64,000 nucleotides of DNA from positions 496,001 through 560,000 of the forward strand of contig NC_014165.1 in assembly GCF_000092645.1 (NCBI RefSeq), written 5' to 3'. Below, piece by piece: positions 9,014-32,010 of the stretch; positions within the stretch are counted from its first letter, which is position 1, and every line of letters begins with the position of its first letter. A program made the translations under genes and the position numbers. The notes under the pieces were generated by a model. That model saw nothing but the letters and a program-made list of their open reading frames with translations. It had not been told where the DNA came from and ran no database searches. The stretch comes from Thermobispora bispora DSM 43833. Lineage in GTDB: Bacteria; Actinomycetota; Actinomycetes; Streptosporangiales; Streptosporangiaceae.

Positions 9014-9769
9014 TCAGGCGTGCTGCTCCTCGGGATTCTTCTCCCGGGCGGCCTCCCGGGCCTTCTCCCGGGCGACCTTGTTCTGCTGGTCCCCGCCCCG
9101 ATCGGGGACGAACCGGTAGCCGACGTTCCGCACCGTGCCGATCAGCGACTCGTACTCGCTGCCCAGCTTGGCCCGCAGCCGCCGGACGTGCACGTCCACG
9201 GTCCGGGTGCCGCCGAAGTAGTCGTACCCCCAGACCTCCTGCAGGAGCTGGGCCCGGGTGAACACCCGGCCCGGGTGCTGGGCGAGGTACTTCAGCAGCT
9301 CGAACTCCTTGAACGTGAGATCGAGCACCCGGCCGCGGATCCGCGCGGTGTACGTGGCCTCGTCGATGCTCAGGTCCCCGCTGCGGATCTCCCCCGGAGC
9401 CTTCTCCGCCTCGGAGGTGGAGAGCTTCCCGATGGCCAGCCGGAGCCGGGCCTCGACCTCGGCCGGGCCGGCGCTCTCCAGGACCACGTCGTCCACGCCC
9501 CACTCGGCGTTGATCGCGGCGAGGCTGCCCTCGGTCACGATGGCGATGAGCGGGGCGGTGAGCCCGGTGGTCCGCAGCAGGCGGCACAGGCTCTTGGCGT
9601 GGATCAGCTCCCGGCGCGCATCGACGAGGATCGCGTCGGCGGGCGGTGCGTCGATGAGCGCGCTGGCCTCTGCCGGGGCCACCCGCACCGGGTGGAGCAG
9701 CAGCCCGAGTGCGGGGAGTATCTCGGTGGAGGGCTCGAGCGCGTTGGTCAGCAGGAGCAGGTTGCTCAC
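9014..9769 (-). CDS. glnR: GlnR, orphan OmpR-type nitrogen regulator
   Basis: This 251-residue response-regulator-like protein controls nitrogen assimilation genes in actinomycetes. The N terminus [15 protein letters not shown] and the receiver residue Asp50 (ILVDARR) are characteristic of GlnR. The C-terminal winged helix ([20 protein letters not shown], then [14 protein letters not shown]) is very close to Streptomyces GlnR as I remember it. No kinase gene is adjacent, as expected for this orphan regulator. GTG 9769 has an AGGAGG site 5 nt upstream; a longer frame upstream is rejected. The C terminus carries an extra charged tail rich in Ala, Arg, Lys and Glu. Confidence 0.95.
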
Positions 9770-9916
9770 GCGCGCCTCCTCGAATCCGAACGTTCCGTCT
9801 GCGCCCGCCTTGCGACCGCCGGCGCAAACACATAAGGACCCGGGGGCGCCGTTGCCCAGGTCCCTTCTGTCGTAGGTTAGCTCAGCGGATCTGCGCTTCA
9901 CCTGTGGGTCTTCCGT

Positions 9917-15339: not shown

Positions 15340-16695
15340 GTGTCCGGAACATCCGCGCATGCCGTCGCCGACCAGCCCGCCGTGCGCCGGAGACCGGCGT
15401 GGCTGCTCTCGCCGTACGCGTTACCGCTCCACGCGCTGCGCATCGCCGGAGCCTGTGCCTTACCGCTGATCATCTGGTTTTCCCTCGGCCGTGTCATCCG
15501 GTGGGGGCTCCTGCTCCTCGCGGCGACCATCTCGCACGGCGAGTGGTACCAGGCTCGGCTGGTCGTCGTGATGTTCCTGTTCACCCTGGTCGTGATGGCC
15601 TCGCTCGTCACGACCATCGGCATGCTCTACATCCTCCGCGGCGCCCTGATGGAGACCCAGGCCCGCCGCGCGGCGGGTGAGGCGCACGAGAGCCTGCTCA
15701 ACGCCCTCAACCGGACCGCGCTCGTGTTCTGCGGGATCTACCTGACCTGGGGGTTCCTCGCCGAGGACGCGCGCGACTTCATGAACATCGACCTGCTCCG
15801 GCAGCCCGACCGGATCTTCATCGACGCGTTCGCGGGCGAAGAGAGCACCGTGATGCGCGGGCTCATCGGCCTCGACCTCATTGTCTCCGCGGTGACCATG
15901 GCCGTGGCCTGGGTGGTGAAGACCCTCTTCGCCCGCCGTCACGAGGCCGGCCGCGGGCGGTTCTCCGGGGTGATCGCCACCTGCGGGGAGCTCGCTTTCG
16001 TGCTGTACGGGCTGAACGCGGTGACCACGGTCTTGGGCGCCCGGTCCGACTGGGTCGGCAGCCGGGTGGTCATCGTGGCCTGGCAGGAGTGGATGGAGAA
16101 GGCCAGGGAGAGCATCCCCGGGTGGAAGTCGGTCACCGACTTCATCGGGGAGGTCTGGCCGTACGTGGTCGACGCGCTCGTCCTCCCGCTCACCTGGCTG
16201 ACGGTCGGCATCCTGGTCTACGGCGCGTACGCGGAGGACACCCGCACCACGATCCGGGGGACGCCGCTGGAGCGCGCCGCGGCGCCCCTGGAGCGCCGCA
16301 CCCACGCCCTGACCCGGCGGGCGCTCGACAGGCTGACCGAGGGGTGGACGAGCCGCTGGATCCCGCTGCTCCATTCACTCCGGCTCACCATGCGCGGCGG
16401 CGCCCCGCTGTTCGGCATGTTCGCCCTGTGCTACGTGGGCCTGCACATCGGCGGCATCTACCTCGAGCGCGCCGGCCGGTACCTGCTGGACACCGGCGAG
16501 CCGTACTTCTGGATCTTCACCAGCGTGCCCATCGAGTTCGTGTCGGAGCTGATCGTCACGACGCTGAGCATGTGCCTGATCGCCGCGACCTTCGATCTCG
16601 CGGCCACCCGGGACCGGCTCGCCCGCGCGCAGGTCAGCGCCGGAAGCGCAGCACGTGATCGTTCCTCTCCTGAGACTTCGCCGCTGCCTTCATGA
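15340..16695 (+). CDS. Multi-pass membrane protein of unknown function
   Basis: This protein of about 451 residues has roughly eight hydrophobic segments, for example HALRIAGACALPLIIWFSLG, LVVVMFLFTLVVMASLVTTI, MRGLIGLDLIVSAVTMAVAW and SELIVTTLSMCLIAATFDLA. No known domain was recognised. GTG 15340 is preferred from the leaderless promoter; ATG 15331 is the alternative. The last 62 nt overlap, tail to tail, the end of the minus-strand operon. Position next to three anchored exported-domain proteins and a VirD4-like/HerA-like pair suggests it may be the channel or scaffold of a membrane complex, which is speculative. Confidence 0.8.
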   Translation: MSGTSAHAVADQPAVRRRPAWLLSPYALPLHALRIAGACALPLIIWFSLGRVIRWGLLLLAATISHGEWYQARLVVVMFLFTLVVMASLVTTIGMLYILRGALMETQARRAAGEAHESLLNALNRTALVFCGIYLTWGFLAEDARDFMNIDLLRQPDRIFIDAFAGEESTVMRGLIGLDLIVSAVTMAVAWVVKTLFARRHEAGRGRFSGVIATCGELAFVLYGLNAVTTVLGARSDWVGSRVVIVAWQEWMEKARESIPGWKSVTDFIGEVWPYVVDALVLPLTWLTVGILVYGAYAEDTRTTIRGTPLERAAAPLERRTHALTRRALDRLTEGWTSRWIPLLHSLRLTMRGGAPLFGMFALCYVGLHIGGIYLERAGRYLLDTGEPYFWIFTSVPIEFVSELIVTTLSMCLIAATFDLAATRDRLARAQVSAGSAARDRSSPETSPLPS

Positions 16696-18322
16696 AGTCT
16701 TCCGTCGACTGACCGGGCACGTCCCGGTAGGTGCTCGGCCGTACCAGCAGCTCGACCTCGTCGGCGACCTCAGGCGGGGCCACGCCGATGAACTCCATCC
16801 GGTAGGTCACGCCGATCCGGTTCTGCTCGGTCGACGGCGGGGTTTCGTTGCTGAGCTCCTCCATGCGCCAGGTACGGCCGGCCCGGTCGGTCAGCATGAC
16901 CTCCGGGGTGCCGTGGCGGATGGCGCCCTCCTGGTCGAGCGCGGTCCGGGTGATGACCGCCTTCAGCCACTTGCGATCGGTCGAGCCCGGTGAGCTGTCC
17001 GGCGGCGGGATCTCGAACAGGGTGGCCCGCCACTCCACGTGCTGCCAGACCATGGACTCGCCCTTCGGCACGATGTGCACGTGGTCGGCCGGGCGCCCGT
17101 ACCGGTACACGCTGTAGTGGAACCAGCCGGGCACGCCGACGGCGAGCGCGACGGAGAGCACGGCCGCGCCGCCGAGCAGGATGGTCCGGCGGGCCCGCGA
17201 CGTGCCCTTTCCGGTGCCGGGGGCCGCGCCCTCCTGGGCGGCGGCGCCGCTCTCCGCCGTGGCCGGCGGCTCCGGCCGCCCCGGCCCCTCGGCCTGCTGC
17301 GGCGGCTGCGGTGGCAGGGTCCGGGTGCCGCGCAGCGCGGGGAAGGGCTGGGTGGACCGGTCCTCGTCGTCCTCGGGCGGCCAGACCCGCTTGTCCTGCG
17401 GCGGGCGGACCCGGCTGGAGGCCGGTCTCGGCTCCTGGGCGGGCAGGCGCCCGCTGTAGGTGATGTCGGGCGATCCTTGGGACGGCAGCGGTCCGCTGTA
17501 GGTGATGTCACCGGGCTGGGGCTCGCCGCCGGGTTGCGGCCCTTGAGCGGGCAGGGGAGCGCCGTAGGTGACGTCGTCCGGTCGTGGTTCCCCGCCGGGC
17601 CGCCCGCCCTGCGGCGGGAGAGCGGCGCTGTACGTGATGTCCGGCGGGGGTGGCGTGCCATGAGCGCCCTCGCCCGGCTGGGCGCCCGGGACGGGCGGCG
17701 CGGGCTCGTAGGCGGGGTCGCCGGGCTGCGGCGGGAGCGCGGCGCCGTAGGTGATGTCGCCGGGCTGCGGCTCACCGCCGGGGTGTGATCCCTGCGGGGG
17801 CGGGGCGGCGCCGTAGGTGATGTCCGCCGGTTGGGTCCCAGAGGACGGCGCAGGAGTGGAATACCCGCCCTCTCCGGGCTGCTGCCCGTGCGACGGCGCA
17901 GGGGTGGGGTACCCGCCCTCCCCGGGCCGCTGCCCGTGCGACGGCGACGGGGCGGGGAACCCGCCTTCGCCCGGCTGCGCCGCCAGGGACGGGCCGGGCT
18001 GCGCCGCCGGGGGCGGAGAAGCGGGCGCGGAGTGCGGACCCTCGCCGGGCCGGGGGCCGTGCGGCTGCACGGGGAAGTGGTAGCCGAGGTCGCCACGGTG
18101 CCCGCCGGGGTGCGGCCCATACGGCAGGTCGGCCGGCCCGCCCTGGGGGTACGGCCCGTGCGCCGGCGCCCCGCCGCCCGGCGGCTGGGCGGGCATGCCG
18201 AAAGCGCCGGAGGTCCCGGCGGACGGATCGGCGTCGGACGGCCGGTCCGGCGGGAGGACGTACCACTCCTGCCCCTCCGGCGTGTTCCCGCTCGGTGTCC
18301 CGTTCCTCGGCGGCTGGCTCAT
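16634..18322 (-). CDS. Single-pass protein with long Pro/Gly-rich repeat region
   Basis: This 562-residue protein has three parts. Residues 1 to about 390 are low-complexity, rich in Pro, Gly and Gln, with six copies of a DITYxAxLP-type unit. A transmembrane helix follows (RRTILLGGAAVLSVALAVGV). A C-terminal extracytoplasmic domain of about 150 residues includes VEWRATLFEIPP, ELSNETPPSTEQNRIGVTYR and DEVELLVRPSTYR strands. ATG 18322 shares one base with the stop of the preceding gene. The outer domain looks like an Ig-type beta-sandwich similar in spirit to DUF4352, an inference. The repeat region could be a cytoplasmic docking or phase-separating tail. Confidence 0.78.
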   Translation of the reverse strand: MSQPPRNGTPSGNTPEGQEWYVLPPDRPSDADPSAGTSGAFGMPAQPPGGGAPAHGPYPQGGPADLPYGPHPGGHRGDLGYHFPVQPHGPRPGEGPHSAPASPPPAAQPGPSLAAQPGEGGFPAPSPSHGQRPGEGGYPTPAPSHGQQPGEGGYSTPAPSSGTQPADITYGAAPPPQGSHPGGEPQPGDITYGAALPPQPGDPAYEPAPPVPGAQPGEGAHGTPPPPDITYSAALPPQGGRPGGEPRPDDVTYGAPLPAQGPQPGGEPQPGDITYSGPLPSQGSPDITYSGRLPAQEPRPASSRVRPPQDKRVWPPEDDEDRSTQPFPALRGTRTLPPQPPQQAEGPGRPEPPATAESGAAAQEGAAPGTGKGTSRARRTILLGGAAVLSVALAVGVPGWFHYSVYRYGRPADHVHIVPKGESMVWQHVEWRATLFEIPPPDSSPGSTDRKWLKAVITRTALDQEGAIRHGTPEVMLTDRAGRTWRMEELSNETPPSTEQNRIGVTYRMEFIGVAPPEVADEVELLVRPSTYRDVPGQSTEDFMKAAAKSQERNDHVLRFRR

Positions 18323-18999
18323 CACTTCTTGTTCACCAGTGTGTGGTACTCCTCTGCCTCGTCGATCAGCCGAGCGGCGGCGCCGCCGGTGAGCCCGAGA
18401 TCGATCTCCGTCTCCGGCTGGTACAGGTCCACGACGAGGAGGCCGGCGGGCGGGGCGAAGACCAGCCGCGCCCCCGGGACGGCGTCCTTCGGCACCTCGT
18501 AGACGAGCACCCCGCTCGACCAGAGCCCCGGCTGGATCCACTTGCTGAACAGGGTGAGGCTGCTGTCGACCTTGTCCGTCGGCCAGTAGACGCGGTCATC
18601 CCTGGTGCGCAGGACCGGAGGGCTGCCCTGCGAGAGCCGGAACGGTTCGCGCACGCCCCGGGCGGAGATGTTCACCACCAGGAACAGGTTGCTGGTCCGG
18701 ACCTGGATCGTGTCGCCGACGCCGAAGTTCTTCGTGTCGACGGAGAGCGCGGCCTTGATCCAGTTCACCTTGACGCTGTACCGCGAGGTGTGCACCACCT
18801 CGCCGATCCGCCCGTGGACGGTCAGGTTGGAGAGCTGCTCCTCGTACGACGGCTCGAAGGTCTGCGCGTAGACCGCGGCCGCGGCGAGGGCGAGGCCGAT
18901 GAGCCCGCGGGCGATCCTCCGGCCGGCGCCCGCCTTGGCGGGCCGGGCCTCCGCGGCCGGTCCCTCCACGCTCGGGAGCTGCGGCTGCGTGACCGTCAT
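18322..18999 (-). CDS. Single-pass membrane protein with exported beta-rich domain
   Basis: This 225-residue protein has a short cytoplasmic N terminus, one hydrophobic helix (RRIARGLIGLALAAAAVYAQ) and an extracytoplasmic domain of about 160 residues rich in beta strands (GEVVHTSRYSVKVNWIKAAL, NLFLVVNISARGV, GVLVYEVPKDAVPGARLVFA). The pattern, ending in a strand that describes a released surface or field-limited modification of fold, is close to Ig-like DUF4352-type domains, but I do not recognise a named family. It overlaps its upstream gene by ATGA and its downstream gene by one base, so the three are a tight operon. Function unknown. Confidence 0.78.
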   Translation of the reverse strand: MTVTQPQLPSVEGPAAEARPAKAGAGRRIARGLIGLALAAAAVYAQTFEPSYEEQLSNLTVHGRIGEVVHTSRYSVKVNWIKAALSVDTKNFGVGDTIQVRTSNLFLVVNISARGVREPFRLSQGSPPVLRTRDDRVYWPTDKVDSSLTLFSKWIQPGLWSSGVLVYEVPKDAVPGARLVFAPPAGLLVVDLYQPETEIDLGLTGGAAARLIDEAEEYHTLVNKK

Positions 19000-19655
19000 T
19001 GCCCCTGCTCCTGCCGTACCGGAAGGGTGATGCGCGCCGCCACGGTGGGCGTGAACTCCTCGTCGTCCAACTCACCGGCGAGCCGCCATTGCCGCGTCTT
19101 GTCGCGGAGGCCGATCTCCTCGTACACGAAGCTGCCGACGTCGATGGTGATCTCGGAAGGGGCGGGGTCGGTGGGCTTGAGGTCGTACTTCACCACCACC
19201 GTCGTCGTGATGCCCGGGTGGAGCTGCCGGCTCTGGACGCCGTAGCTGAGCACGTAGACGCTCGGGCCGTACTCGGACTTGATCTCCGGGGCGATCCTGA
19301 GCAGTGAGCTGGCGAACTCCCCGAACCCCATGGACGGCTTGGCATCGGGCTTGGGGATGCCGCCGACCGGTGCGGTCTCGTTGCTCACGTTCTTGACCTT
19401 GAGCACGAGCTGCAGGCTGCGCTTGGGCGTGCCGTACCGGTCCTGTTCCGTGGTGTCGATCGCCTTGATGAACTGCGTGCTGAACCGGCCCTGATCGATG
19501 ATCTTCCCGGGGGCGACCTCGGGAGGCGGCTTCTCCGGCGCCTCCTGCAGGCCGCCGAGCAGCGCGGTGACGCCCAGGCCGGCAGCGGCGATCGCGATGG
19601 CTGCCGGGATGAGGATCGGGCGTCGGCGGCGCTTGCCTCCGCGGGATGAGGTCAT
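18996..19655 (-). CDS. Single-pass membrane protein, first gene of the exported-domain operon
   Basis: This 219-residue protein begins with a basic stretch (RGGKRRRRP), a hydrophobic helix (ILIPAAIAIAAAGLGVTALL) and an exported domain with SLQLVLKVKNVSNETAP and QLHPGITTTVVVKYDL strands. These resemble DUF4352-like (telokin-like) sandwiches, whose usual pattern is a conserved-vocabulary VKVxNxS motif. ATG 19655 lies 8 nt after a TACCAT hexamer on the minus strand, so it is probably leaderless. An upstream in-frame extension is rejected. It heads a three-gene operon transcribed away from the VirD4-like gene. Confidence 0.8.
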   Translation of the reverse strand: MTSSRGGKRRRRPILIPAAIAIAAAGLGVTALLGGLQEAPEKPPPEVAPGKIIDQGRFSTQFIKAIDTTEQDRYGTPKRSLQLVLKVKNVSNETAPVGGIPKPDAKPSMGFGEFASSLLRIAPEIKSEYGPSVYVLSYGVQSRQLHPGITTTVVVKYDLKPTDPAPSEITIDVGSFVYEEIGLRDKTRQWRLAGELDDEEFTPTVAARITLPVRQEQGQ

Positions 19656-19799
19656 GCCAAGGGATGGTAGTACGACGCCCTTGCGGCACTTGCCGGATCT
19701 ATGGCACGGCCATGGGAGAAATACGTCTGAATGGCGAGAAGCCCACACCGGTGAGGCGTGGAGATCCTAGGCTGGGATCGAGGCGGACATGGAGGGCTC

Positions 19800-21716
19800 G
19801 TGGGCGACCCGCACCCTGATCATGCCCAGCTTCAGGCTGATCGGATATACCTGGGCTGGCAGTATGCGCAGTTATATCCGGATCCCGGACCGCCGCCCAA
19901 GCGTCCTCCCAGGGAAGAGATCCCCGAAGAGCCGCTCGACGACGAGTGGTTACGCCGCCAGCGGTTTCAGGAGGATCTGTTCAACCGTCCGGTCCGGCTG
20001 CTGCGCACCTCGGCGGCGATGATCGCCGCCCTCATCCTCCTCCTCGGCGTCACCGGGGTGCTGATGTGGCCCCTCGTCCTGCTCGGCCTCGCCGCGGCCG
20101 GCGGTGTCGCGCTCATCTGCAGTTACGCGATCTACAAGGGCAGGCGCACCGTGGACGCGCGGATCGAGGAGCGCCGGGAGCGGCTCCAGCGCGAGCGGGA
20201 GCGCCGGAAGCGGGAGCTCCTCGCCGCCGAGGAGGAGCACGCGGCGAAATACCGGGAGTGGGCTGAGCGGAAACGCCGGTACGAGGAGCAGGTGACCTGG
20301 TATGCGGTTACCGTGCCCGACGACATCGACCGGATCGACGTGGCCGGCGGCACCCTCGCCGGATGGTCCGCCCTGATCACCTTGGTCGGCGCCACCCGGC
20401 TCCACAGCGGGGGCGATCTGACCGTCCTCGACCTCTCCGAGGGGGCGATCGCAACGGACCTCATCGAGCTCGCCAGGCGCGGCGGCGACAAGCCGCTCGT
20501 CTGGGTGCTCCCGGCCGACCTGCCGCGCCTCGACCTGGGCGCGCGGCTGGGGCCGGAGGCCTTCGCCGACGTGCTCGCGCACGTGGTGAGCGTGAGCGAG
20601 GAGACGGGGAGGGACATCGGGTTCGACAACGCGATTCTGGAGCGGGTGCTCCAGGTTCTCGGCGAGGACGCGACCATCAGCCAGGTGACCGCCGCGCTGC
20701 GGGCCCTCGCGCAGGTGGGCGACCCGCGCGATGACATGCGGCGCGGCCTGCTCACCGCGGCCCAGCTCGAGCGGATCGGCACGCTCTTCGGCCGCGGGGT
20801 GGCCGACCGGGTGGTCATCGAGCGGGCCTGGGCCATGGAGTCCCAGCTCCGGAAGCTGGAGCCGCTCGGCTCGGAGGCGGTGCCCCTGCCCCCCGCCCGC
20901 CTGCGGGTGATCAGCATGGACCGGCAGGCGGGGGTGTTCGGGAACCGGGTCCTGGGCACCTACGTGGCCACCGCGCTGACCCACCTGCTCCGCAGGTCGC
21001 CGGCGAACCGGCGGCCCTGGGACCACACGATCATCGTCGCGGGGGCCGACAAGCTCCGGGGCGACGTGCTCGACCGGCTCATGGACGCCTGCGAGACGTC
21101 GCGCACCGGGCTGGTGTTCACCTACCGCACCCTCACCCCGACCGTGCGGGAGCGCCTGGGCCGCGGCCACGCCGCCGTCGCCTTCATGCGCCTCGGCAAC
21201 GCCGAGGACGCCCGGGTGGCGAGCGAGCACATCGGCACCGGGCACCGCCTGGAGCTCGCCCGGCTCACCGAGCGGCTCAGCGCGTCCGCGGGCGGGATGG
21301 CCGGCCGGTACACGTCGACCGTCGGTCCGCAGCAGGCCTCGGCCGGGGAGCGGAGCGAGGGCGATCTCCGGGAGGACATCACCCGGTCGACCGAGTGGGG
21401 GCGGCGGGCCACGGAGGTCGCGCACGGGGCGCCGCACCTGTCGCGCGAGTTCCTGGTGGAGCCGCACCAGCTCCAGCAGCTCCCCACCACCTCGGTCATC
21501 GTCACGCACGCCACGGCCGAAGGCCGCCGGGTACGGCTCGCCGACGCCAACCCGGCGATCCTGACGTTCCCCAAGAGCACGCTCCGCGACATCGATGAGG
21601 TGTTGCGGGCCCTGCCCGACGGTGGAGAGGAAGAGGCGTCCCCCGCCGGCGCGGACGCCCCGCCGCCCAACCTGGGGCCACCGCCGCCCCGGCTCGACTG
21701 GCGGAAGCGACCATGA
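19800..21716 (+). CDS. Membrane-anchored VirD4/TraG-like pseudo-ATPase (inferred)
   Basis: This protein is about 638 residues. A double hydrophobic segment (residues about 70-110; MIAALILLLGVTGVLMWPLV) is followed by a charged coiled coil (about 118-165). A large domain follows whose landmarks match VirD4/TraG/FtsK-type coupling proteins but with catalytic residues lost: GGTLAGWS at 183-190 sits where a Walker A would be (Trp189 in place of Lys), and HTIIVAGADKL (409-419) where Walker B would be (Gly-Ala in place of Asp-Glu). The LGNAEDARVASEHIGTGHR region fits the same fold. GTG 19800 follows a GGAGGG site; GTG 19758 is an alternative. It is 96 nt upstream of an intact ATPase. Confidence 0.7.
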   Translation: MGDPHPDHAQLQADRIYLGWQYAQLYPDPGPPPKRPPREEIPEEPLDDEWLRRQRFQEDLFNRPVRLLRTSAAMIAALILLLGVTGVLMWPLVLLGLAAAGGVALICSYAIYKGRRTVDARIEERRERLQRERERRKRELLAAEEEHAAKYREWAERKRRYEEQVTWYAVTVPDDIDRIDVAGGTLAGWSALITLVGATRLHSGGDLTVLDLSEGAIATDLIELARRGGDKPLVWVLPADLPRLDLGARLGPEAFADVLAHVVSVSEETGRDIGFDNAILERVLQVLGEDATISQVTAALRALAQVGDPRDDMRRGLLTAAQLERIGTLFGRGVADRVVIERAWAMESQLRKLEPLGSEAVPLPPARLRVISMDRQAGVFGNRVLGTYVATALTHLLRRSPANRRPWDHTIIVAGADKLRGDVLDRLMDACETSRTGLVFTYRTLTPTVRERLGRGHAAVAFMRLGNAEDARVASEHIGTGHRLELARLTERLSASAGGMAGRYTSTVGPQQASAGERSEGDLREDITRSTEWGRRATEVAHGAPHLSREFLVEPHQLQQLPTTSVIVTHATAEGRRVRLADANPAILTFPKSTLRDIDEVLRALPDGGEEEASPAGADAPPPNLGPPPPRLDWRKRP

Positions 21717-21812
21717 CACCGTTCACATTGGGTAACGGCATCGTCAACCGGGCTGTGTCGGCGTGTTCGGTGAAGGAATCTCTCCCCAGTTCGTCGTCAC
21801 CTGAGGGGTCTC

Positions 21813-24800
21813 ATGCATCCGTTCCCCTTGAGCGGGCCGTGGTACCGGATCCAGGCGATCACCGCCCCCGCGCGTAGCCCGTCCGCGGAGTGGGACTTCG
21901 TCACCGTGCTTCCCGCCGTCCTCTCCGCGGCGCAGCGGAACCGGCCGTTCGTCATCGGCTGGCTGTCGCGAGGGGCGGGGGCGCCGTTAGAGCTGATCAC
22001 GAACGCGGGGCCGCTGGAGCCGCCCCGCCAGCCCAAGCGCGCCGCCACGACCGGCGACCCGCCGCCCGCGGGCCCGCAGCCGCTGCTCTTCCCCGGCGGC
22101 GCGCGGGGCGTGGAGATCGGCGACGACTGGCTCGCCGATCTGGCCGACCTGGTGTGGACGCCGTGCCCGGGCCGGCAGGCGCCGCCGCTGCAGGGCCGGG
22201 CGGGGACGGACGCCGAGTCCGGCCGGCCGACGCTGTTCGAGTCGACGCTGGTCACCCTCATGTCCCGGCCGTTCGCCTGGCTGGTGATCGCCGAGCCGAC
22301 CGACCTGCTCGACGCGGAGATCGCCCACCTGCGCACCCAGCTCAACGTGCTCCGGCAGTACGGCGACGCCTCCGAGCGGTCGCGGTTCGACGTGGAGCGG
22401 GCGGAGCGGCGCATGCAGGAGCTCGACGCGTTCCGCGAGGCCGGGCTGTGGAACGTGCGCGTGCTCGCCGGCGCGGCGAACGCCGAGGAGCTGCGGCAGA
22501 TCGCCCCGGTGCTGGTGGGCTCCGTGGAGATGAGCCACCACCCCTACCGGCTGCGCACCGCCCTGTCCGGGGCGGGCCTGGCCGGGAAGGACTCCGGCCC
22601 GGGCGCCGGCCCGGTGTACGCCTTCACCGAGGCGCTCTCCCTCGACCTGCGCGACCCCACCGACGGGGCGGCCACCCCGTTCGCGGCCACGGCCGGGGCG
22701 CTCGCCGCGCTCGCCGGGCTGCCGCACCGGGAGGTGCCCGGGGTGCGGGTGCTCGACGCGGGCTTCTTCGACGTGACGAGCGAGGCCGAGGTCGACGGCA
22801 GCTCCGAGGTGATCGATCTCGGGACGATCGTGGACGGCCAGGACCGGCCGGTGGGAACGTTCCGCGTGCCGCTCTCCACGATCAACCGCCACGTGTTCGT
22901 GACCGGCGCCACCGGGTCGGGCAAGTCGCAGACGGTGCGGCACCTGCTCGAGCAGCTCACCGAGGCGGGGATCCCGTGGCTCGCGATCGAGCCGGCCAAG
23001 TCCGAGTACGCGGCGATGGCCGGCCGGATCGAGCACCTCGCCCCGCTGACCGTGATCAACCCGTCGGCGCCCGACAACGTGCCGATCAGCGTCAACCCGC
23101 TCGCGCCCGAGCCGGGCTACCCGGTGCAGGCGCACATCGACATGGTCCGCGCGCTCTTCATGGCCGCGTTCGACGCCGAGGAGCCGTTCCCGCAGATCAT
23201 GTCGCTGGCGCTGCAACGGGTCTACGAGGCCAACGGCTGGGACGTGGTCACCGGGGCCGGCATCCCCGGGGCGGCGGTGCAGCCGGCCGTGCCCACGCTT
23301 GAGCAGCTCCAGCAGCACGCCCTCGAGGTGATCCAGGAGATCGGCTACGGCAACGAGGTGCAGGCCGACGTCGAGGGCTTCATCAGCCTGCGGCTGCGCA
23401 GCCTGCGGGTGGGGAGCGCCGGCCGGTTCTTCGAGGGCGGCCACCCCGCGGACATCGGCGGGCTGCTCCAGCGGAACGTGGTGCTCGCGATCGAGGACGT
23501 GGCCAACGACGAGGACAAGGCGTTCCTCATGGGCACGCTGATCATCCGGATCGTGGAGCACCTGCGGATGCGCGCCCGGCAGGAGCCGCGGGAGGAGCTG
23601 GCCGGGGGCCTCCGGCACGTGATCGTGATCGAGGAGGCGCACCGGCTGCTGCGGAACCGCGGCGCGGGCCGGGCCTCCACCCACGCGGTCGAGCTGCTCG
23701 CCGGGATGCTCGCCGAGATCCGGGCGTACGGCGAGGGCATCATCGTGGCCGAGCAGATCCCGACCAAGCTCGTCTCCGACGTGGTGAAGAACACCGCGCT
23801 CAAGATCGTGCACCGGCTGCCGGCCGAGGACGACCGGCGGCTCGTCGGGGCGGCGATGAACCTGAGCGAGGACCAGTCCCGCCAGGTCGTCTCGCTGCGG
23901 CCCGGGTACGCGGCGGTGTTCGCCGACGGCATGGACCGCCCGCTTCGGGTGAAGATCCCTCTGGGGGAGGACCGGGAGCGGCCGATGCTCAGCCCGGTGC
24001 CGCCGATCCGGGGCCGCCGGTCGGCCGCCTGCGGGCGCGAGTGCCGTACCGGGAAGGCGTGCACCCTGGTCGAGCTGCGGGAGGCGGACCTGCTCGCCGC
24101 CGCCCCCGAGTGGGCGTGGCTGCGGATCTGGACCGACACGGTGATCCTGGCCTTCGTGACGAACCGGCCGCTGCCGGGGGTGCCGCGGGTGCTCGCCGAC
24201 ATCTGGGCCGAGCTGCCGCCGCGGCGCCGGGAGTGCCTGCTCGCCACGCTGATCGAGCGCTCGGTCTCCCGCCGCGCCTGGTCGCTGCGCACCTGGTTCG
24301 ACCCGGCGCTGCTGACCGAGCGGGCCGCGGAGGTCGCGGCCGGGCTGCTCGACCCGGAGAGCGTGGAGGGCGAGCTGCCGCCCATGCGGCCGGGCGACCG
24401 GCCGGGCCCGTCGTGGGTGATCCCGCAGGTGCGCTGGCTGCACGAGGTGGAGCGGCTCTTCCCGTACGGCCGGCCCGCCCCGGACCTGCGCGACCCGGCG
24501 CCGCCCATGGAGTATCCGCTGTTCGGCACCGACCCGGCCGGGCGGCCGTACCCGCACCCCGGGGTGAACGGGTCGGTCCAGCCCGAGGGCAAGGGGGAGG
24601 GCGCCGTGGCCGTGGGGGCGCGGGTCGAGCTGCTCGGCCACCGGGCCAAGGCGCTCCGCCACCACCCGCTGTCGATGGAGGTCGACCGCAACCGGGCGCT
24701 CGCCTGGCGGGTGATCCTCGGCGACGACGAGCACGAGGGGATCCAGCGGGACATCACCATCGTCGCGATCGGGGTCGAGCCGCATGAGCGGCTCCGGTTC

Positions 24801-24917
24801 GTGGCGCAGACGATGGGCGCCTCGTGGCTGGAGACGGTCCTGTCGTGGCCGCGGCGCTTCGTCCTCCCGTTCGACGGTGACGCGCCGACGGAACTTTCCT
24901 TCCCTGATGCGGGATGA
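21813..24917 (+). CDS. Large HerA/VirB4-like (DUF87) P-loop ATPase
   Basis: This is a 1034-residue ATPase of the HerA-FtsK superfamily. The N-terminal part (1-340) is family-specific. Walker A is GATGSGKS (365-372) and Walker B is HVIVIEEAHRLLRN (602-615, Glu607-Glu608). After it come AEQIPTKLVSDVVKNTALKI and the HRLPAEDDRR segment that is typical of HerA/VirB4 sensor regions. A Cys cluster (CGRECRTGKAC) follows near residue 735, perhaps a metal site, then a C-terminal region of about 280 residues of unknown fold. It could pump or remodel DNA or drive secretion. It is the probable motor of the neighbouring membrane proteins. Confidence 0.85.
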   Translation: MHPFPLSGPWYRIQAITAPARSPSAEWDFVTVLPAVLSAAQRNRPFVIGWLSRGAGAPLELITNAGPLEPPRQPKRAATTGDPPPAGPQPLLFPGGARGVEIGDDWLADLADLVWTPCPGRQAPPLQGRAGTDAESGRPTLFESTLVTLMSRPFAWLVIAEPTDLLDAEIAHLRTQLNVLRQYGDASERSRFDVERAERRMQELDAFREAGLWNVRVLAGAANAEELRQIAPVLVGSVEMSHHPYRLRTALSGAGLAGKDSGPGAGPVYAFTEALSLDLRDPTDGAATPFAATAGALAALAGLPHREVPGVRVLDAGFFDVTSEAEVDGSSEVIDLGTIVDGQDRPVGTFRVPLSTINRHVFVTGATGSGKSQTVRHLLEQLTEAGIPWLAIEPAKSEYAAMAGRIEHLAPLTVINPSAPDNVPISVNPLAPEPGYPVQAHIDMVRALFMAAFDAEEPFPQIMSLALQRVYEANGWDVVTGAGIPGAAVQPAVPTLEQLQQHALEVIQEIGYGNEVQADVEGFISLRLRSLRVGSAGRFFEGGHPADIGGLLQRNVVLAIEDVANDEDKAFLMGTLIIRIVEHLRMRARQEPREELAGGLRHVIVIEEAHRLLRNRGAGRASTHAVELLAGMLAEIRAYGEGIIVAEQIPTKLVSDVVKNTALKIVHRLPAEDDRRLVGAAMNLSEDQSRQVVSLRPGYAAVFADGMDRPLRVKIPLGEDRERPMLSPVPPIRGRRSAACGRECRTGKACTLVELREADLLAAAPEWAWLRIWTDTVILAFVTNRPLPGVPRVLADIWAELPPRRRECLLATLIERSVSRRAWSLRTWFDPALLTERAAEVAAGLLDPESVEGELPPMRPGDRPGPSWVIPQVRWLHEVERLFPYGRPAPDLRDPAPPMEYPLFGTDPAGRPYPHPGVNGSVQPEGKGEGAVAVGARVELLGHRAKALRHHPLSMEVDRNRALAWRVILGDDEHEGIQRDITIVAIGVEPHERLRFVAQTMGASWLETVLSWPRRFVLPFDGDAPTELSFPDAG

Positions 24918-24949: not shown

Positions 24950-26224
24950 ATGAGTCAGCTTCCGTTGCGGGCGCAGCTCGCCACCGCGCTGGGCCGTACC
25001 GCCGCGACCCTGTCCCGGGCCACCGGCCGCGGCGACGGCTCGGTGATCGGCGGCAGGATCGGGCTCATGCTCGACCCGGACCTGCTGCGCAAGCTGGCGG
25101 CGCACCGCAAGCTCGCCCTGGTCAGCGCGACGAACGGGAAGACCACGACGACCCGCTTGATCGCCGCGGCCCTGCAGGAGCTGGGCGAGGTGGCGACCAA
25201 CGCCTTCGGGGCGAACATGCCGGCGGGTCACGTGACGGCCCTCGCCTCGGCCAAGAACGCGCCGTACGGCGTGCTCGAGGTGGACGAGAAGTACCTCCCC
25301 GAGGTGCTCGACACCACCGGGGCGCAGGTCGTCTGCCTGATGAACCTCAGCCGCGACCAGATGGACCGGGCCGCCGAGATCTGGCTGCTGGCCCAGAAGT
25401 GGCGCCGGGCGCTCAGCGGCAAGCCCGCCCACGCGATCGCCAACTGCGATGACCCGCTGGTGGCCTGGGCCGCCAGCACCGCCGCCCGGGTCACCTGGGT
25501 GGCGGCCGGGCAGCGCTGGCGGGAGGACTCATGGTGCTGCCCGGAGTGCGGCGGCCCGCTCGACCGCCCCGAGCCGGGGACGATCGGCCAGGGGATCGGG
25601 GTCTCGTCGGCCGCCGGCGCCATGTGGGCCTGCCGGGAGTGCACCTTCCACCGCCCGGAGCCGAACTGGGTGCTCGACGGTGAGGAGGTCATCGACCCCC
25701 GGGGCACGCGCTGGCGGCTGGACCTGCAGCTTCCCGGCCAGGCGAACCGGTCGAACGCGGCGATGGCCCTCGCGGTCGCGGCCGCCTTCGGCCTGGAGCC
25801 CGCCCGGGCCCTGCCCCGGCTGCGCACGGTGACCTCGGTGGCCGGGCGGTACACCACGGTCGAGCGGGACGGCCGGGTGCTGCGGCTGCTGCTCGCCAAG
25901 AACCCCGCGGGCTGGCTCGAGGCATTCGACGTGACCGACCCCGCGCTTCCGGTGATCCTCTCGGTCAACGCCCAGGTGCCGGACGGCCGCGACACCTCCT
26001 GGCTGTGGGACGTCGACTACGGCGTGCTCAAGGGCCGCCCCGTGGTCGTCACCGGCGAGCGCCGGCTCGACCTGGCGCTCCGGCTCCACGTGGCCGGGGT
26101 GCCGTTCCAGCTGTGCGACTCGTTCGGTGAGGCGGTCTCCGCCGTGCCCGCCGGCCGGGTCGACGTGATCGCCAACTACACCGCGTTCCAGCAGATCCGA
26201 GCGGAGTTCGGCCGTGCAGTCTGA
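24950..26224 (+). CDS. murT: Lipid II isoglutaminyl synthase, Mur-ligase subunit MurT
   Basis: This is a 424-residue Mur-ligase-like protein that, with GatD, amidates the alpha-carboxyl of D-Glu in lipid II. The ATP motif TNGKTTTT is at residues 61-68. The central domain carries VLEVDEKYLPEV and a four-Cys ribbon (CPEC and CREC) characteristic of MurT. The C-terminal domain is DUF1727, with WLWDVDY as a family mark and the late NYTAFQQIR segment. The start is leaderless: TAGGAT (24938-24943) plus 6 nt. The 3' end overlaps gatD by 11 nt. This is a housekeeping cell-wall function of Gram-positive bacteria. Confidence 0.95.
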   Translation: MSQLPLRAQLATALGRTAATLSRATGRGDGSVIGGRIGLMLDPDLLRKLAAHRKLALVSATNGKTTTTRLIAAALQELGEVATNAFGANMPAGHVTALASAKNAPYGVLEVDEKYLPEVLDTTGAQVVCLMNLSRDQMDRAAEIWLLAQKWRRALSGKPAHAIANCDDPLVAWAASTAARVTWVAAGQRWREDSWCCPECGGPLDRPEPGTIGQGIGVSSAAGAMWACRECTFHRPEPNWVLDGEEVIDPRGTRWRLDLQLPGQANRSNAAMALAVAAAFGLEPARALPRLRTVTSVAGRYTTVERDGRVLRLLLAKNPAGWLEAFDVTDPALPVILSVNAQVPDGRDTSWLWDVDYGVLKGRPVVVTGERRLDLALRLHVAGVPFQLCDSFGEAVSAVPAGRVDVIANYTAFQQIRAEFGRAV

Positions 26225-26921
26225 CCTGTGCCTCGTCTGGATCTATCCCGACCTGCTCAGCACCTACGGCGACCAGGGCAACGTTCTGGTGCTCGAGCAC
26301 CGGGCGCGGGCCCGGGGGATCCCGGCCCGGACGATCCACGTCCGCTCCTCCGACCCGGTCCCCCAGCAGGGGCACATCTACCTGATCGGAGGCGGTGAGG
26401 ACCGGCCCCAGATCCTCGCCACCGAGCGGCTGCGCCGGGACGGCGGCCTGCACGCCGCGGTCGCCAACGGCGCGGTGGTGTTCGCGGTCTGCGCGGGTTA
26501 CCAGCTCATCGGCCGGGTGTACGCCGGGGACGAGGGCCAGCCGGTGGAGGGCGTCGGCCTGCTCGACATCAGCTCCGGCCGCGGCCAGCGGCGGGCCGTG
26601 GGCGAGCTCGCCGCCGAGCCCGACCCCGCGCTCGGCCTGCCCACGCTCACCGGGTTCGAGAACCACATGGGGGTGACCACGCTCGGCCCCGGGGTGCGGC
26701 CGCTCGCCCGCACGGTCGCCGGGGTCGGCAACGGCGACGGCACCGAGGGGTGCTACGCGGGGCGGGTGGTCGGCACCTACATGCACGGCCCGGCGCTCGC
26801 CCGCAACCCCGCCCTGGCCGACCTGCTGCTGAGCTGGGTCGTGGGGGCGCTCCCGCCCATGGACGACACGTGGTACGAGCGGCTGCGCCAGGAGCGGCTC
26901 GCCGCCGTGCTCTCCAAGTGA
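26214..26921 (+). CDS. gatD: Lipid II isoglutaminyl synthase, glutaminase subunit GatD
   Basis: This 235-residue class I glutamine amidotransferase releases ammonia from Gln for MurT. The nucleophile is Cys93 in AVCAGYQLIG and the catalytic His is His190 in YMHGPALARNP. The N terminus WIYPDLLSTYGDQGN is typical of GatD. It starts with GTG inside the end of murT, so the two subunits are co-translated. The family length is matched. Confidence 0.95.
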   Translation: MQSDLCLVWIYPDLLSTYGDQGNVLVLEHRARARGIPARTIHVRSSDPVPQQGHIYLIGGGEDRPQILATERLRRDGGLHAAVANGAVVFAVCAGYQLIGRVYAGDEGQPVEGVGLLDISSGRGQRRAVGELAAEPDPALGLPTLTGFENHMGVTTLGPGVRPLARTVAGVGNGDGTEGCYAGRVVGTYMHGPALARNPALADLLLSWVVGALPPMDDTWYERLRQERLAAVLSK

Positions 26922-28910: not shown

Positions 28911-29321
28911 ATGGCCAAGGCATGGCACGAGGAACTGCGGGCGCGCGGTTACCGGATCACCCCTCAGCGGCAGCTCGTGCTCGAAGCGGTCGCCAAGCTG
29001 GGGCACGCGACGCCGGAGGACATCTGTGCCGAGGTCCGGGAGACGGCACGCGGGATCAACATCTCGACCGTCTACCGCACGCTCGAGCTCCTTGAGAAGC
29101 TCGGCCTGGTCACGCACACGCACCTCAACCGGAACGCCCCCACCTATCACCTGGCCTCCGAGGCCGATCACGTGCACCTCGTCTGCCGGGGCTGCGGGGA
29201 GGTGACGGAGGTCTCGCCGGACATGGCCGCGGGGCTCGTGTCGAGCCTCGAGGAGAAGCTCGGTTTCGAGACCGATATCAGTCACCTCACCGTCTACGGC
29301 CACTGCCGTAACTGCCGTTGA
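28911..29321 (+). CDS. Fur-family metalloregulator
   Basis: This is a 136-residue ferric-uptake-type repressor. The N-terminal winged helix has YRITPQRQLVLEAV and NISTVYRTLELLEKLGLV. The dimerisation domain contains the HVHLVCRGCGEVTEV metal motif and ends in two Cys (GHCRNCR), giving CxxC pairs for structural zinc. Subtype (Fur, Zur or Nur) is not decided by sequence alone; the second CxxC at the C terminus is common in Zur and Fur of actinobacteria. The start is leaderless: TAAACT (28899-28904) plus 6 nt. Confidence 0.92.
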   Translation: MAKAWHEELRARGYRITPQRQLVLEAVAKLGHATPEDICAEVRETARGINISTVYRTLELLEKLGLVTHTHLNRNAPTYHLASEADHVHLVCRGCGEVTEVSPDMAAGLVSSLEEKLGFETDISHLTVYGHCRNCR

Positions 29322-29418: not shown

Positions 29419-30258
29419 GTGACCGTCCAGGCAGAAGCAGCCATCCGGCGCACCAAGGAACTCTTCCTGGAGCAAGACGGACGGCTGCTCGATCAATGGT
29501 CCGAAAAGGCGAACATCTCCGCCGATGAGCTCCGCGAGCTCTACCGTGCCCTGCGCACCGCGCTCTCCGGCAAGGAAGAGGACTTCACCGACGTACGCGG
29601 GCTGCTCGCCGAGTTCTCCCGGACCCGGGTCCGGCAGGGGTACACGCCCTCGGAAACCGCGCGGACGGTGTTCGCGCTCAAGGACGCGATGTACGAGATC
29701 GTCGAGGCCGACGGCAGCCCCGAGGCGCTCCGCGGGTTCGCGTGGTTCTCGCGGCTCGTCGACGACCTCGGCCTGTTCACCTTCGAGACCTTCTCCAACG
29801 CCCGGGAGAAGATCATCCTTGACCAGACCGAGCAGCTCCTGGAGCTCTCCACGCCCGTGGTGAAGCTGTGGGAGGGCATCGTCGCGGTGCCGCTCGTCGG
29901 CACCCTCGACTCGGCCCGGACCCAGGTCGTGATGGAGAAGCTGCTGCAGACCCTGATGGAGACGGGCTCACAGCACGCCGTCATCGACATCACCGGGGTC
30001 CCGGCCGTGGACACCCAGGTCGCCCACCACCTGCTGAAGACGGTGATGGCGGCCCGGCTGATGGGCGCCGAGTGCGTGATCTCCGGGATCCGCCCGCAGA
30101 TCGCGCACACCATCGTCACGCTCGGCATCGAGTTCGGTGACATCGTCACCAAGGCCTCGCTCGCCGACGCGCTGGCGCACGCGCTCCGCAGAAGCGGCGC
30201 CGAGATCAAGGTCAACGGCCGCCGGCCCGACGAGGAAGAGACCGAGAGCAGCCCATGA
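29419..30258 (+). CDS. rsbR: RsbR-type stressosome protein (RsbRD-STAS)
   Basis: This 279-residue protein has an N-terminal helical RsbRD-type sensory domain (about 1-140) and a C-terminal STAS domain (about 150-265) with IDITGVPAVDTQVAHHLLKT. In stressosomes RsbR binds RsbS, captures RsbT and releases it when the signal arrives; the STAS Thr residues are the phosphorylation targets. GTG 29419 follows a GAGGAG site. The region upstream is AT-rich (29322-29385), which marks a regulated promoter. First gene of a six-gene operon in which every junction overlaps or nearly overlaps. Confidence 0.9.
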   Translation: MTVQAEAAIRRTKELFLEQDGRLLDQWSEKANISADELRELYRALRTALSGKEEDFTDVRGLLAEFSRTRVRQGYTPSETARTVFALKDAMYEIVEADGSPEALRGFAWFSRLVDDLGLFTFETFSNAREKIILDQTEQLLELSTPVVKLWEGIVAVPLVGTLDSARTQVVMEKLLQTLMETGSQHAVIDITGVPAVDTQVAHHLLKTVMAARLMGAECVISGIRPQIAHTIVTLGIEFGDIVTKASLADALAHALRRSGAEIKVNGRRPDEEETESSP

Positions 30259-30617: not shown

Positions 30618-31018
30618 GCACCGAGCCGCAGGAACTGACCATCGCCACCAACGGCGACATCGTCCAGGCGCGCCGGCAAGTCCGGATCGCCGCGGCGGAG
30701 CTGGGGCTGTCGCTGGTCGACCAGACCAAGGTGGTGACCGTGGCGAGCGAGCTGGCCCGGAACGCCCTGGTGCACGCGGGCGGCGGCCACATGCGGGTCG
30801 AGGTCGTGCACAACGGACCCCGCCGGGGCCTTCGGCTGACCGTGGTCGATGAAGGGCCCGGCATCGAGGACATCGAGCAGGCGCTGACCGAGGGCTTCAG
30901 CACCGCCAACGGCCTCGGGCTGGGCCTCAGCGGGTCGCGCCGCCTCGTCGACGAATTCGACCTGGTCTCGGCACCCCAGCAGGGCACGCGGGTGACGGTG
31001 ATCAAATGGGCGCGGTGA
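30614..31018 (+). CDS. rsbT: RsbT-type serine/threonine kinase
   Basis: This is a 134-residue GHKL-type kinase. The N box is ASELARNALVHAG, followed by the ATP lid VVDEGPGIEDIEQALTEGFS and GLGLGLSGSRRLVDEF, typical of RsbT. It phosphorylates RsbR and RsbS and then, once free, activates a downstream phosphatase. GTG 30614 overlaps the rsbS stop codon. In Bacillus the RsbT target is RsbU; here the PP2C protein at 33682 or another phosphatase is the candidate target. Confidence 0.93.
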   Translation: MSTEPQELTIATNGDIVQARRQVRIAAAELGLSLVDQTKVVTVASELARNALVHAGGGHMRVEVVHNGPRRGLRLTVVDEGPGIEDIEQALTEGFSTANGLGLGLSGSRRLVDEFDLVSAPQQGTRVTVIKWAR

Positions 31019-32010
31019 TGGACGGCCGGGCGGACGTGTGGATCCGCACCGAGGACCCGAGCGCGGTCGGTGCGGTCCGCCGGGCCGCGGCCGAGCTCGC
31101 CAGGGAGGCCGGTTTCGACGCGACCCGGACCGGTGAGGTCGGGGTGGCCGTGACCGAGGCCGTCTCGAACCTGGTCAAGCACGCGGTGGACGGCGTCGTC
31201 CTGCTCCGCCCGCACCCGGAGATGGCCCGCGCGGTGGAGCTCGTGGCCATCGACAGCGGGCCCGGCATCGCCGACCTCGGTCAGGCGCTGCGCGACGGCT
31301 ACTCCACCACCGGCACCCTGGGGATCGGCCTGGGGGCGATCCGGCGCCTCGCCTCACGGCTGGACGCCTACTCCCTCCCGGGCCGGGGCAGCGTGCTCGT
31401 GGCGGTCTTCACCCCGCACGGCATGCCGGCGCCGCCGCAGCGGTGCAGCGGGCTGTGCCGCCCGATCGGGGAGGAGGTGGTGTGCGGGGACGCCTTCGCG
31501 TTCGTGGCGACCGAGGACTCGGTGATCGTCACCGTCTGCGACGGGCTGGGGCACGGCGGTGCCGCGGCACAGGCGTCCCAGCAGGCGGTACGGATCTTCC
31601 TCAAGCAGCCGCACATGTCACCCGCCGAGATCCTGGAGCGCGTCCACCGCGGGCTGGGGCAGACCAGGGGCGGCGCGGTCGCGGTCGGCCTGGTGCGGCC
31701 GGGGTCGGTGTCCTTCGCCGGGCTGGGCAACGTCTCCGGGTTGATCGTCACCGCCGAGGGCAAGGTGGCGATGACCTCCCAGCCGGGGATCGCCGGCCAC
31801 CCGGGCGGGCTCACGCACCAGTACGAGTACCCGCTGCCGCAGCACGCGGTCGTGGTCTTCCACTCCGACGGTCTCTCGGACCGCTGGGAGCCCACGACCT
31901 TCCCCGGCCTGCTCACCCACTCGCCGGCCGTCATCTGCGCCACCCTGCTGCGCGATGTGGGCACCCGGCGGGACGACGCGTGCGTGGTGGCGGTGAGGGC
32001 GCGGCCATGA
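31006..32010 (+). CDS. Fused RsbT/RsbW-like kinase and RsbX/SpoIIE-like phosphatase
   Basis: This 334-residue protein joins two stressosome activities. Residues about 1-130 are a second GHKL domain (TEAVSNLVKHAV, DSGPGIADLGQALRDGYS, GTLGIGLGAIRRL). Residues about 140-334 are an RsbX-like PP2C domain (GEEVVCGDAFAF, VTVCDGLGHGGAAAQAS, VFHSDGLSDRW). RsbX resets the stressosome by dephosphorylating RsbR and RsbS, so one chain may both phosphorylate and dephosphorylate. The ATG at 31006 overlaps rsbT by 13 nt; ATG 31018, overlapping the rsbT stop by one base, is an alternative. Confidence 0.9.
   Translation: MGAVMDGRADVWIRTEDPSAVGAVRRAAAELAREAGFDATRTGEVGVAVTEAVSNLVKHAVDGVVLLRPHPEMARAVELVAIDSGPGIADLGQALRDGYSTTGTLGIGLGAIRRLASRLDAYSLPGRGSVLVAVFTPHGMPAPPQRCSGLCRPIGEEVVCGDAFAFVATEDSVIVTVCDGLGHGGAAAQASQQAVRIFLKQPHMSPAEILERVHRGLGQTRGGAVAVGLVRPGSVSFAGLGNVSGLIVTAEGKVAMTSQPGIAGHPGGLTHQYEYPLPQHAVVVFHSDGLSDRWEPTTFPGLLTHSPAVICATLLRDVGTRRDDACVVAVRARP

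Follow-up and report, generated by a model that had tools for sequence, protein, structure and literature searches.

The window analysed here, a stretch of 64,000 bases from the actinobacterium Thermobispora bispora DSM 43833 (bases 496001–560000 of one 4,189,976-base genome; G+C 70–76%), contains six neighbouring genes labelled A to F. The last two, E and F, encode a pair of large proteins that recurs in other actinobacteria and is the main subject of this report.

15340–16695 (+): gene A, 451 amino acids, polytopic membrane protein with six hydrophobic segments above threshold; conserved in 67 relatives.
16634–18322 (−): gene B, 562 amino acids, proline-rich disordered N-terminus, membrane segment at residues 381–399 and exported domain; conserved in 64 relatives.
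18322–18999 (−): gene C, 225 amino acids, putative anchored exported protein; conserved in 73 relatives.
18996–19655 (−): gene D, 219 amino acids, hydrophobic segment at residues 14–32 plus exported domain; conserved in 74 relatives.
19800–21716 (+): gene E, 638 amino acids, predicted TrwB/VirD4 coupling-protein fold with the ATP site lost (fold match, weak profile alignment, adjacency to F).
21813–24917 (+): gene F, 1034 amino acids, intact ATPase of the HerA/VirB4 clade (Pfam, profile and fold matches).

All six open reading frames (ORFs) are open at these coordinates, and A–F are real genes, with starts and sequences that are kept in dozens of related genomes across genera of the Streptosporangiaceae. 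The closest relatives found belong to this family, across which F retains about 73–88% and E 65–79% identity, while A–D evolve much faster. The loci compared were picked by their matches to F, and the counts of E–F pairing rest on that choice; motif counts refer to 81 F and 78 E sequences.

Protein F is laid out as an N-terminal domain (residues 1–300), a motor (about 300–725) and a C-terminal region, with the following motifs:

22905–22928 (+): Walker A, GATGSGKS, residues 365–372; identical in 80 of 81 sequences.
23616–23651 (+): Walker B, HVIVIEEAHRLL, residues 602–613; EE / EEAHRLL pattern in 81 of 81.
24030–24062 (+): cysteine triad, C740, C744 and C750; pattern in 80 of 81.

An earlier note, made from the letters of the window, had described F as an intact P-loop motor with GATGSGKS and a Glu-Glu Walker B, and the conservation of both motifs bears this out. 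The cysteine triad is invariant in an alignment that includes distant relatives, and could be a metal site. Pfam matches to F comprise HerA_C (6.5e-10) and DUF87 (1.7e-7); a profile of F and its relatives retrieves Sulfolobus HerA (E-value 5.2e-10) and several defence HerAs from PDB. In VIA-align comparisons, the modelled motor (approximately residues 300–725) matches DndH (DndH-C), VirB4 and HerA at Z scores of 15–16, as well as EccC and EssC at about 10–11. Profiles and modelled fold together place F in the HerA/VirB4 clade of the FtsK-HerA superfamily. It reaches 43.6 bits where the curated NCBIfam HerA equivalog requires 800, and it also falls far short of the cut-offs set for ATPases of type IV secretion systems (T4SSs); given its distance from the HerA cut-offs, it forms a separate branch.

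Several other F-like sequences were encountered. The longer F ORFs of Microtetraspora were considered as possible intein carriers, an idea we rejected: in L075, the only one aligned, the extra length is low-complexity sequence in the variable C-terminal linker. In phages, F is matched by just two unannotated contigs from fecal samples, which match the ATPase core. A shorter HerA-type ATPase (L188; G000:C1:3242146-3243135, −) is the sole other F-like match in the window's genome, with 27% identity over the motor. A sister clade of DUF87 ATPases of about 1040 amino acids occurs without E (L177:6098-9238, L178:6083-9196 and L114:9184-12384, −); on two plasmids a gene of about 130 codons precedes each of these ATPases, possibly as another system.

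Protein E has no family match in Pfam, NCBIfam or PADLOC. Two features stand out in its N-terminal part:

20013–20153 (+): N-terminal membrane segment(s), residues 72–118 (hydropathy, model helices).
20346–20369 (+): degenerate P-loop, GGTLAGWS, residues 183–190; tryptophan replaces the Walker A lysine.

Since the models are poor and the Foldseek match is weak (VirB4 at an E-value of 0.19), we relied on the VIA-align ranking. TrwB structures occupy ranks 1–5, with Z scores of 9.3–9.8 over about 250 residues within 205–591, followed by a Legionella coupling-complex protein (8.5), VirB4 (8.1) and, lower still, HerA and Cag-beta; unrelated helical rows reach about 8, which makes the TrwB margin modest. 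A profile built from 13 diverse E proteins can be aligned with TrwB at the P-loop and, in collinear order, at the C-terminus, with an E-value of 0.12 that alone is not significant. In the same alignment, the GGTxxGW of E falls on GATGTGK of TrwB, placing tryptophan at the Walker A lysine. The degenerate motif GGT(L/I/M/V)xGW(S/T) is present in 78 of 78 E sequences, the canonical GxxxxGK[ST] in 0 of 78. A crude hydropathy scan detects a single strong hydrophobic segment at about residues 77–95, as expected of an N-terminal anchor; residues 72–118, which include helices in the model, look to us like two membrane-spanning helices. Fold ranking and profile alignment together support E as an ATP-dead protein of the TrwB/VirD4 fold, in agreement with the earlier proposal of a membrane-anchored VirD4 relative with lost catalytic residues. 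The comparison of both large proteins with known profiles and folds, which had been suggested along with it, points to the HerA/VirB4 clade for F and the TrwB/VirD4 fold for E. Direct comparison of E with F reveals no significant sequence relationship; their link lies at the level of fold. Outside the window, the same genome carries a second E-type gene (G000:C1:36816-38615; L118:15798-17645, −) with no F adjacent. It resembles the E of a Streptomyces antimycoticus plasmid (44% identity) more closely than that of the window, and is possibly a remnant of a lost locus of the toxin-bearing type described below.

E and F genuinely belong together as a pair. In Streptosporangiaceae loci that reach far enough upstream, E adjoins F. 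Outside the near relatives, 39 loci that contain F or an F-like gene were scored for the presence of E: it is found in the same stretch at 30 of the 31 loci where F scores at least 395 bits, and at 0 of the 8 where the score is below 345 bits. These loci are partly non-independent, many coming from one family, f17, and about eleven sharing one arrangement (we guess the label f17 to stand for Frankiaceae, and f18 for Streptomyces). The order of the two genes differs among loci—E before F, after F, or divergent from it—which argues against mere synteny.

At accessory E–F loci outside the window's lineage, a toxin-type protein is encoded directly behind F, in most cases together with a small partner gene:

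L152, Streptomyces clavuligerus plasmid: ADP-ribosyltransferase (2.1e-24), plus a 134-residue partner gene.
L156, genome G324: ADP-ribosyltransferase (3.5e-28), plus a 134-residue partner gene.
L154, S. antimycoticus plasmid: RelA/SpoT-like protein (4.4e-4, below the Pfam cut-off), a 94-residue gene and an HD_4 hydrolase (2.2e-21).
L120, genome G243: calpain-type protease (7.1e-11), plus a DUF6406 protein.
L153, Nocardia plasmid: lipase-like protein (GHSLG motif visible, weak family scores), plus an ankyrin protein.
L111, genome G056: barnase-like RNase (5.1e-4, below cut-off); no small partner identified.
L169, genome G380: EndoU nuclease (4.7e-23), plus a 121-residue gene.
L157, genome G278: C-terminus read as papain-like (no family match), plus a 77-residue gene.

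The toxin gene overlaps F by 4 bases in L111, L152, L153 and L154, and follows after a gap of about 280 bases in L120. The toxins have long, low-complexity N-termini. Seven of these eight leaders are acidic, with net charges from −31 to −101; that of the EndoU protein is at −3. None of the eight proteins contains a strongly hydrophobic, signal-like or membrane segment, and none matches the WXG or LXG families. A common N-terminal signal motif was sought and rejected: an ERKAxLLDxRA repeat is confined to the two orphan EndoU toxins, and the other N-terminal similarities are compositional. Homology links the partners of the two ADP-ribosyltransferases (7e-14), and likewise those of three EndoU toxins (1e-19 to 1e-23). 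The same toxin thus goes with the same partner family, and by this pairing the small genes appear to behave like immunity genes. EndoU is rare in the class, being found in one of 98 sampled genomes, G038, which also carries E–F. There, two EndoU–partner pairs lie on the chromosome away from E–F, and their EndoU sequences align with the E–F-linked one along almost the whole length. Judging by such orphan pairs, an E–F machine could have cargo genes at a distance from its own locus, and the toxin link would then be compatible with the window locus, where no toxin gene is adjacent. Taken as a group, the E–F relatives display the hallmark of polymorphic toxins, namely exchangeable C-terminal toxin domains with cognate partners at one locus type; the adjacent toxin gene that belongs to this pattern is missing at the window locus.

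A few further arrangements were seen near E–F or F-like genes. On a Streptomyces plasmid (L176: 5518-7059, 7127-8619), the C-terminal part of an F-like protein is joined to a zeta-toxin domain; next come a protein whose N-terminus is acidic and of low complexity, and a small HEAT-like protein. YkuD-type L,D-transpeptidase-like proteins lie near f17 E–F loci, and in L166 an AbiEi-type regulator gene stands behind E (L113:11971-12840; L172:5855-6931, −; L166:11346-12308). In a locus from the window's GTDB family, a divergent E–F pair (L158:6267-12206) is followed by a 113-residue acidic low-complexity protein that has no toxin domain and resembles a toxin leader alone.

What the analysis shows is the E–F pairing, the ATPase motifs kept in F but lost from E, the fold match and, in relatives, toxin and partner genes that follow F. 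We propose that E–F powers a T4SS-like apparatus for protein export in actinobacteria, as its energising core, with toxins as cargo in several lineages; we give this slightly better than an even chance. By analogy with HerA and VirB4, F would assemble as an ATPase ring. Its fold and lost motif suggest that E holds F at the membrane, as a receptor or scaffold offering a docking platform for F and cargo. In several lineages the cargo would be toxins that carry an exchangeable toxin domain at the C-terminus behind a long disordered leader; most are encoded with a small partner that would keep them harmless and protect the producer. The disordered N-terminus may be recognised and the toxin then driven out; conceivably, the YkuD-type protein of f17 copies, or A–D in the window's copy, could act on the wall. 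The window's E–F would have a similar task, its cargo genes lying elsewhere, and A–D would perhaps be lineage-specific envelope parts. The earlier suggestion of a transport machine gains from the toxin–partner genes behind E–F in other actinobacteria.

Several results weigh against this proposal. The AlphaFold models of both proteins, built on shallow alignments, are poor for F (predicted local distance difference test score, pLDDT, of 50) and of low confidence for E (pLDDT 57). No VirB3, VirB6, VirB8 or other channel part was recognised, and the toxin N-termini contain no clear conserved signal domain, sharing only composition. In the window, A–F include no toxin domain and a MurT-GatD pair stands behind F; no toxin gene follows F in the inspected Streptosporangiaceae loci, and about eleven syntenic f17 loci and several others are likewise without a toxin neighbour. 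EndoU is absent from the window's genome.

Toxins encoded behind a HerA-type motor could also belong to an intracellular defence like HerA-SIR2 or HerA-DUF4297, in which the ATPase would sense phage or plasmid DNA and then activate or release a toxin to stop the infected cell, the small protein being its antitoxin. The nearest solved structures of F include defence HerAs, PADLOC returns weak matches of F to mad8 and HerA, and the S. antimycoticus locus adjoins ABC-three-component genes and DUF6615. The same PADLOC search gives nothing for E and recognises no anti-phage system composition. We consider a defence role distinctly unlikely: the partner of F has a membrane-anchored coupling-protein fold, the variable toxin domains with disordered leaders, matching partners and pairs away from E–F fit secretion better, and the window's copy is without an adjacent effector gene. 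A DNA-transfer or DNA-processing apparatus left over from conjugation is suggested by the membership of E and F in the FtsK/HerA/TrwB fold group, whose members pump DNA, and by the several E–F copies on plasmids. It is, however, highly improbable in view of the lack of relaxase or other transfer genes in the block or scanned neighbours, the ATP-dead E of all relatives examined, and the overlap of toxin genes with F at loci unrelated to one another. A DNA-handling or defence role, which the earlier note had kept open, accounts less well for the pairing of the same toxin with the same partner and for the orphan toxin pairs.

The relation of A–D to this core differs between lineages. As described before, B–D form an overlapping operon and A is polytopic. 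The operon lies on the minus strand, B starting at 18322 where C ends and C and D overlapping by 4 bases; A runs convergently into B. Library scans give no family match for A or D and a sub-threshold DUF4352 match for C (E-value 3.6e-5, 24.5 bits against a cut-off of 25.9). They also yield no relaxase, VirB or Ecc family among A–D or the scanned neighbours, in agreement with the lack of conjugation, ESX and T4SS genes reported earlier. A–D show no sequence match to VirB3, VirB6, VirB8 or relaxase, although sequence methods can miss Gram-positive VirB proteins; A in particular was tried as VirB6 and did not match. Profile comparisons of C with D and of B with D, as mutual relatives, were not significant. 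In the Streptosporangiaceae, 69 loci extend for 7.7 kb or more upstream of E; all four genes are present at 63 of them, some at five and none at one; at six of the 69 the A–D block is 1.5–5.4 kb from E. Beyond this family the A–D profiles match nothing at any tested E–F locus, and we reject A–D as part of the E–F core there. The idea of six genes forming one system thus holds as proximity within the Streptosporangiaceae and is not supported outside it. Co-occurrence across genomes, put forward as a check on it, is borne out for the E–F pair, but A–D are missing or displaced in several relatives. A–D are best regarded as lineage-specific neighbours, separable within the family, whose functional link to E–F is plausible but unproven.

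The surroundings of the Streptosporangiaceae loci allow another reading, that E–F with A–D is a cell-envelope machine for wall or surface-protein assembly that has nothing to do with toxins, the toxin-linked copies elsewhere being a separate specialisation of the same engine. Two genes behind F are relevant here:

24950–26224 (+): MurT-like gene, downstream of F on the same strand.
26214–26921 (+): GatD-like gene, following the MurT-like gene on the same strand.

High conservation at one chromosomal place, usually beside MurT-GatD, agrees with an envelope function, as do the anchored A–D proteins with their exported domains, the lack of adjacent toxins in the Streptosporangiaceae loci inspected and the YkuD-type proteins near f17 copies. 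We nevertheless judge it unlikely, as A–D are absent from E–F loci elsewhere and separable within the family, and the MurT-GatD adjacency may be synteny alone. The MurT/GatD-like pair (lipid II amidation) stands behind F in most relatives, three Nonomuraea loci (L034, L035 and L041) being exceptions.

The export proposal can be extended: E–F would then form the core of a secretion system, as yet undescribed, in mycelial Gram-positive bacteria. An ATP-dead coupling protein would be its fixed receptor, a separate HerA-type motor would supply the energy, and its cargo would include several toxins from scattered toxin–partner pairs; in the Streptosporangiaceae it would be a fixed chromosomal machine with A–D as envelope parts. 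We regard this fuller version as tentative, possible but short of probable.

E–F can be compared with several known systems. With T4SSs (VirB4/VirD4, TrwK/TrwB) it shares the TrwB fold of E and the VirB4/HerA fold of F, and with antibacterial T4SSs the toxin and partner genes near E–F in relatives. It differs in that E lacks the Walker A lysine, VirB3, VirB6, VirB8, VirB10 and relaxase are not recognised, and just two proteins, E and F, are common to all loci. The motor domain of F resembles the HerA ATPases of archaeal DNA repair and of defence (HerA-SIR2, HerA-DUF4297, MADS mad8), but the N- and C-terminal regions of F differ from theirs, and F is paired with an inactive, anchored protein. 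Type VII systems (ESX/Ess) likewise use a motor of the FtsK/HerA superfamily to export toxins from Gram-positive cells. In EccC and EssC a single membrane protein contains several ATPase domains, and these systems export WXG100 and LXG proteins; here, by contrast, motor F and anchored partner E are separate proteins. In having variable toxin domains at the C-terminus and cognate partner genes, the E–F relatives recall polymorphic toxin systems (PMC3482391), whereas the leader of E–F toxins is disordered and not a known trafficking domain. A 2012 survey lists type VII secretion with its FtsK/HerA ATPase; in the passages searched it does not describe an export route of the E–F type (PMC3482391). 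A fuller description of the system may exist elsewhere. A one-sentence mention from 2025 reports a Streptomyces albireticuli alarmone synthetase beside TrwB, TrwK and TrwI genes (PMC12691689). That signal-less synthetase is comparable to the RelA/SpoT-like toxin behind the S. antimycoticus E–F, and the locus may be the E–F system seen once; no TrwI-like gene was identified at our E–F loci.

Other neighbours in the window are ordinary:

9014–9901 (−): GlnR-type regulator.
28911–29321 (+): FUR-family regulator.
29419–30258 (+): RsbRD/STAS protein.
31006–32010 (+): HATPase-SpoIIE protein.

How Gram-positive T4SSs export effectors is a long-standing question, according to a 2025 review (PMC12857230). 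If the export reading of E–F is true, this question would become testable in Streptomyces, through a two-protein, T4SS-like motor encoded immediately ahead of toxin and partner genes in this genus and other actinobacteria. It would also suggest an exit route for toxins that leave actinobacterial cells without a signal peptide. As a natural coupling protein without an ATP site of its own, E would bear on the role of coupling proteins.

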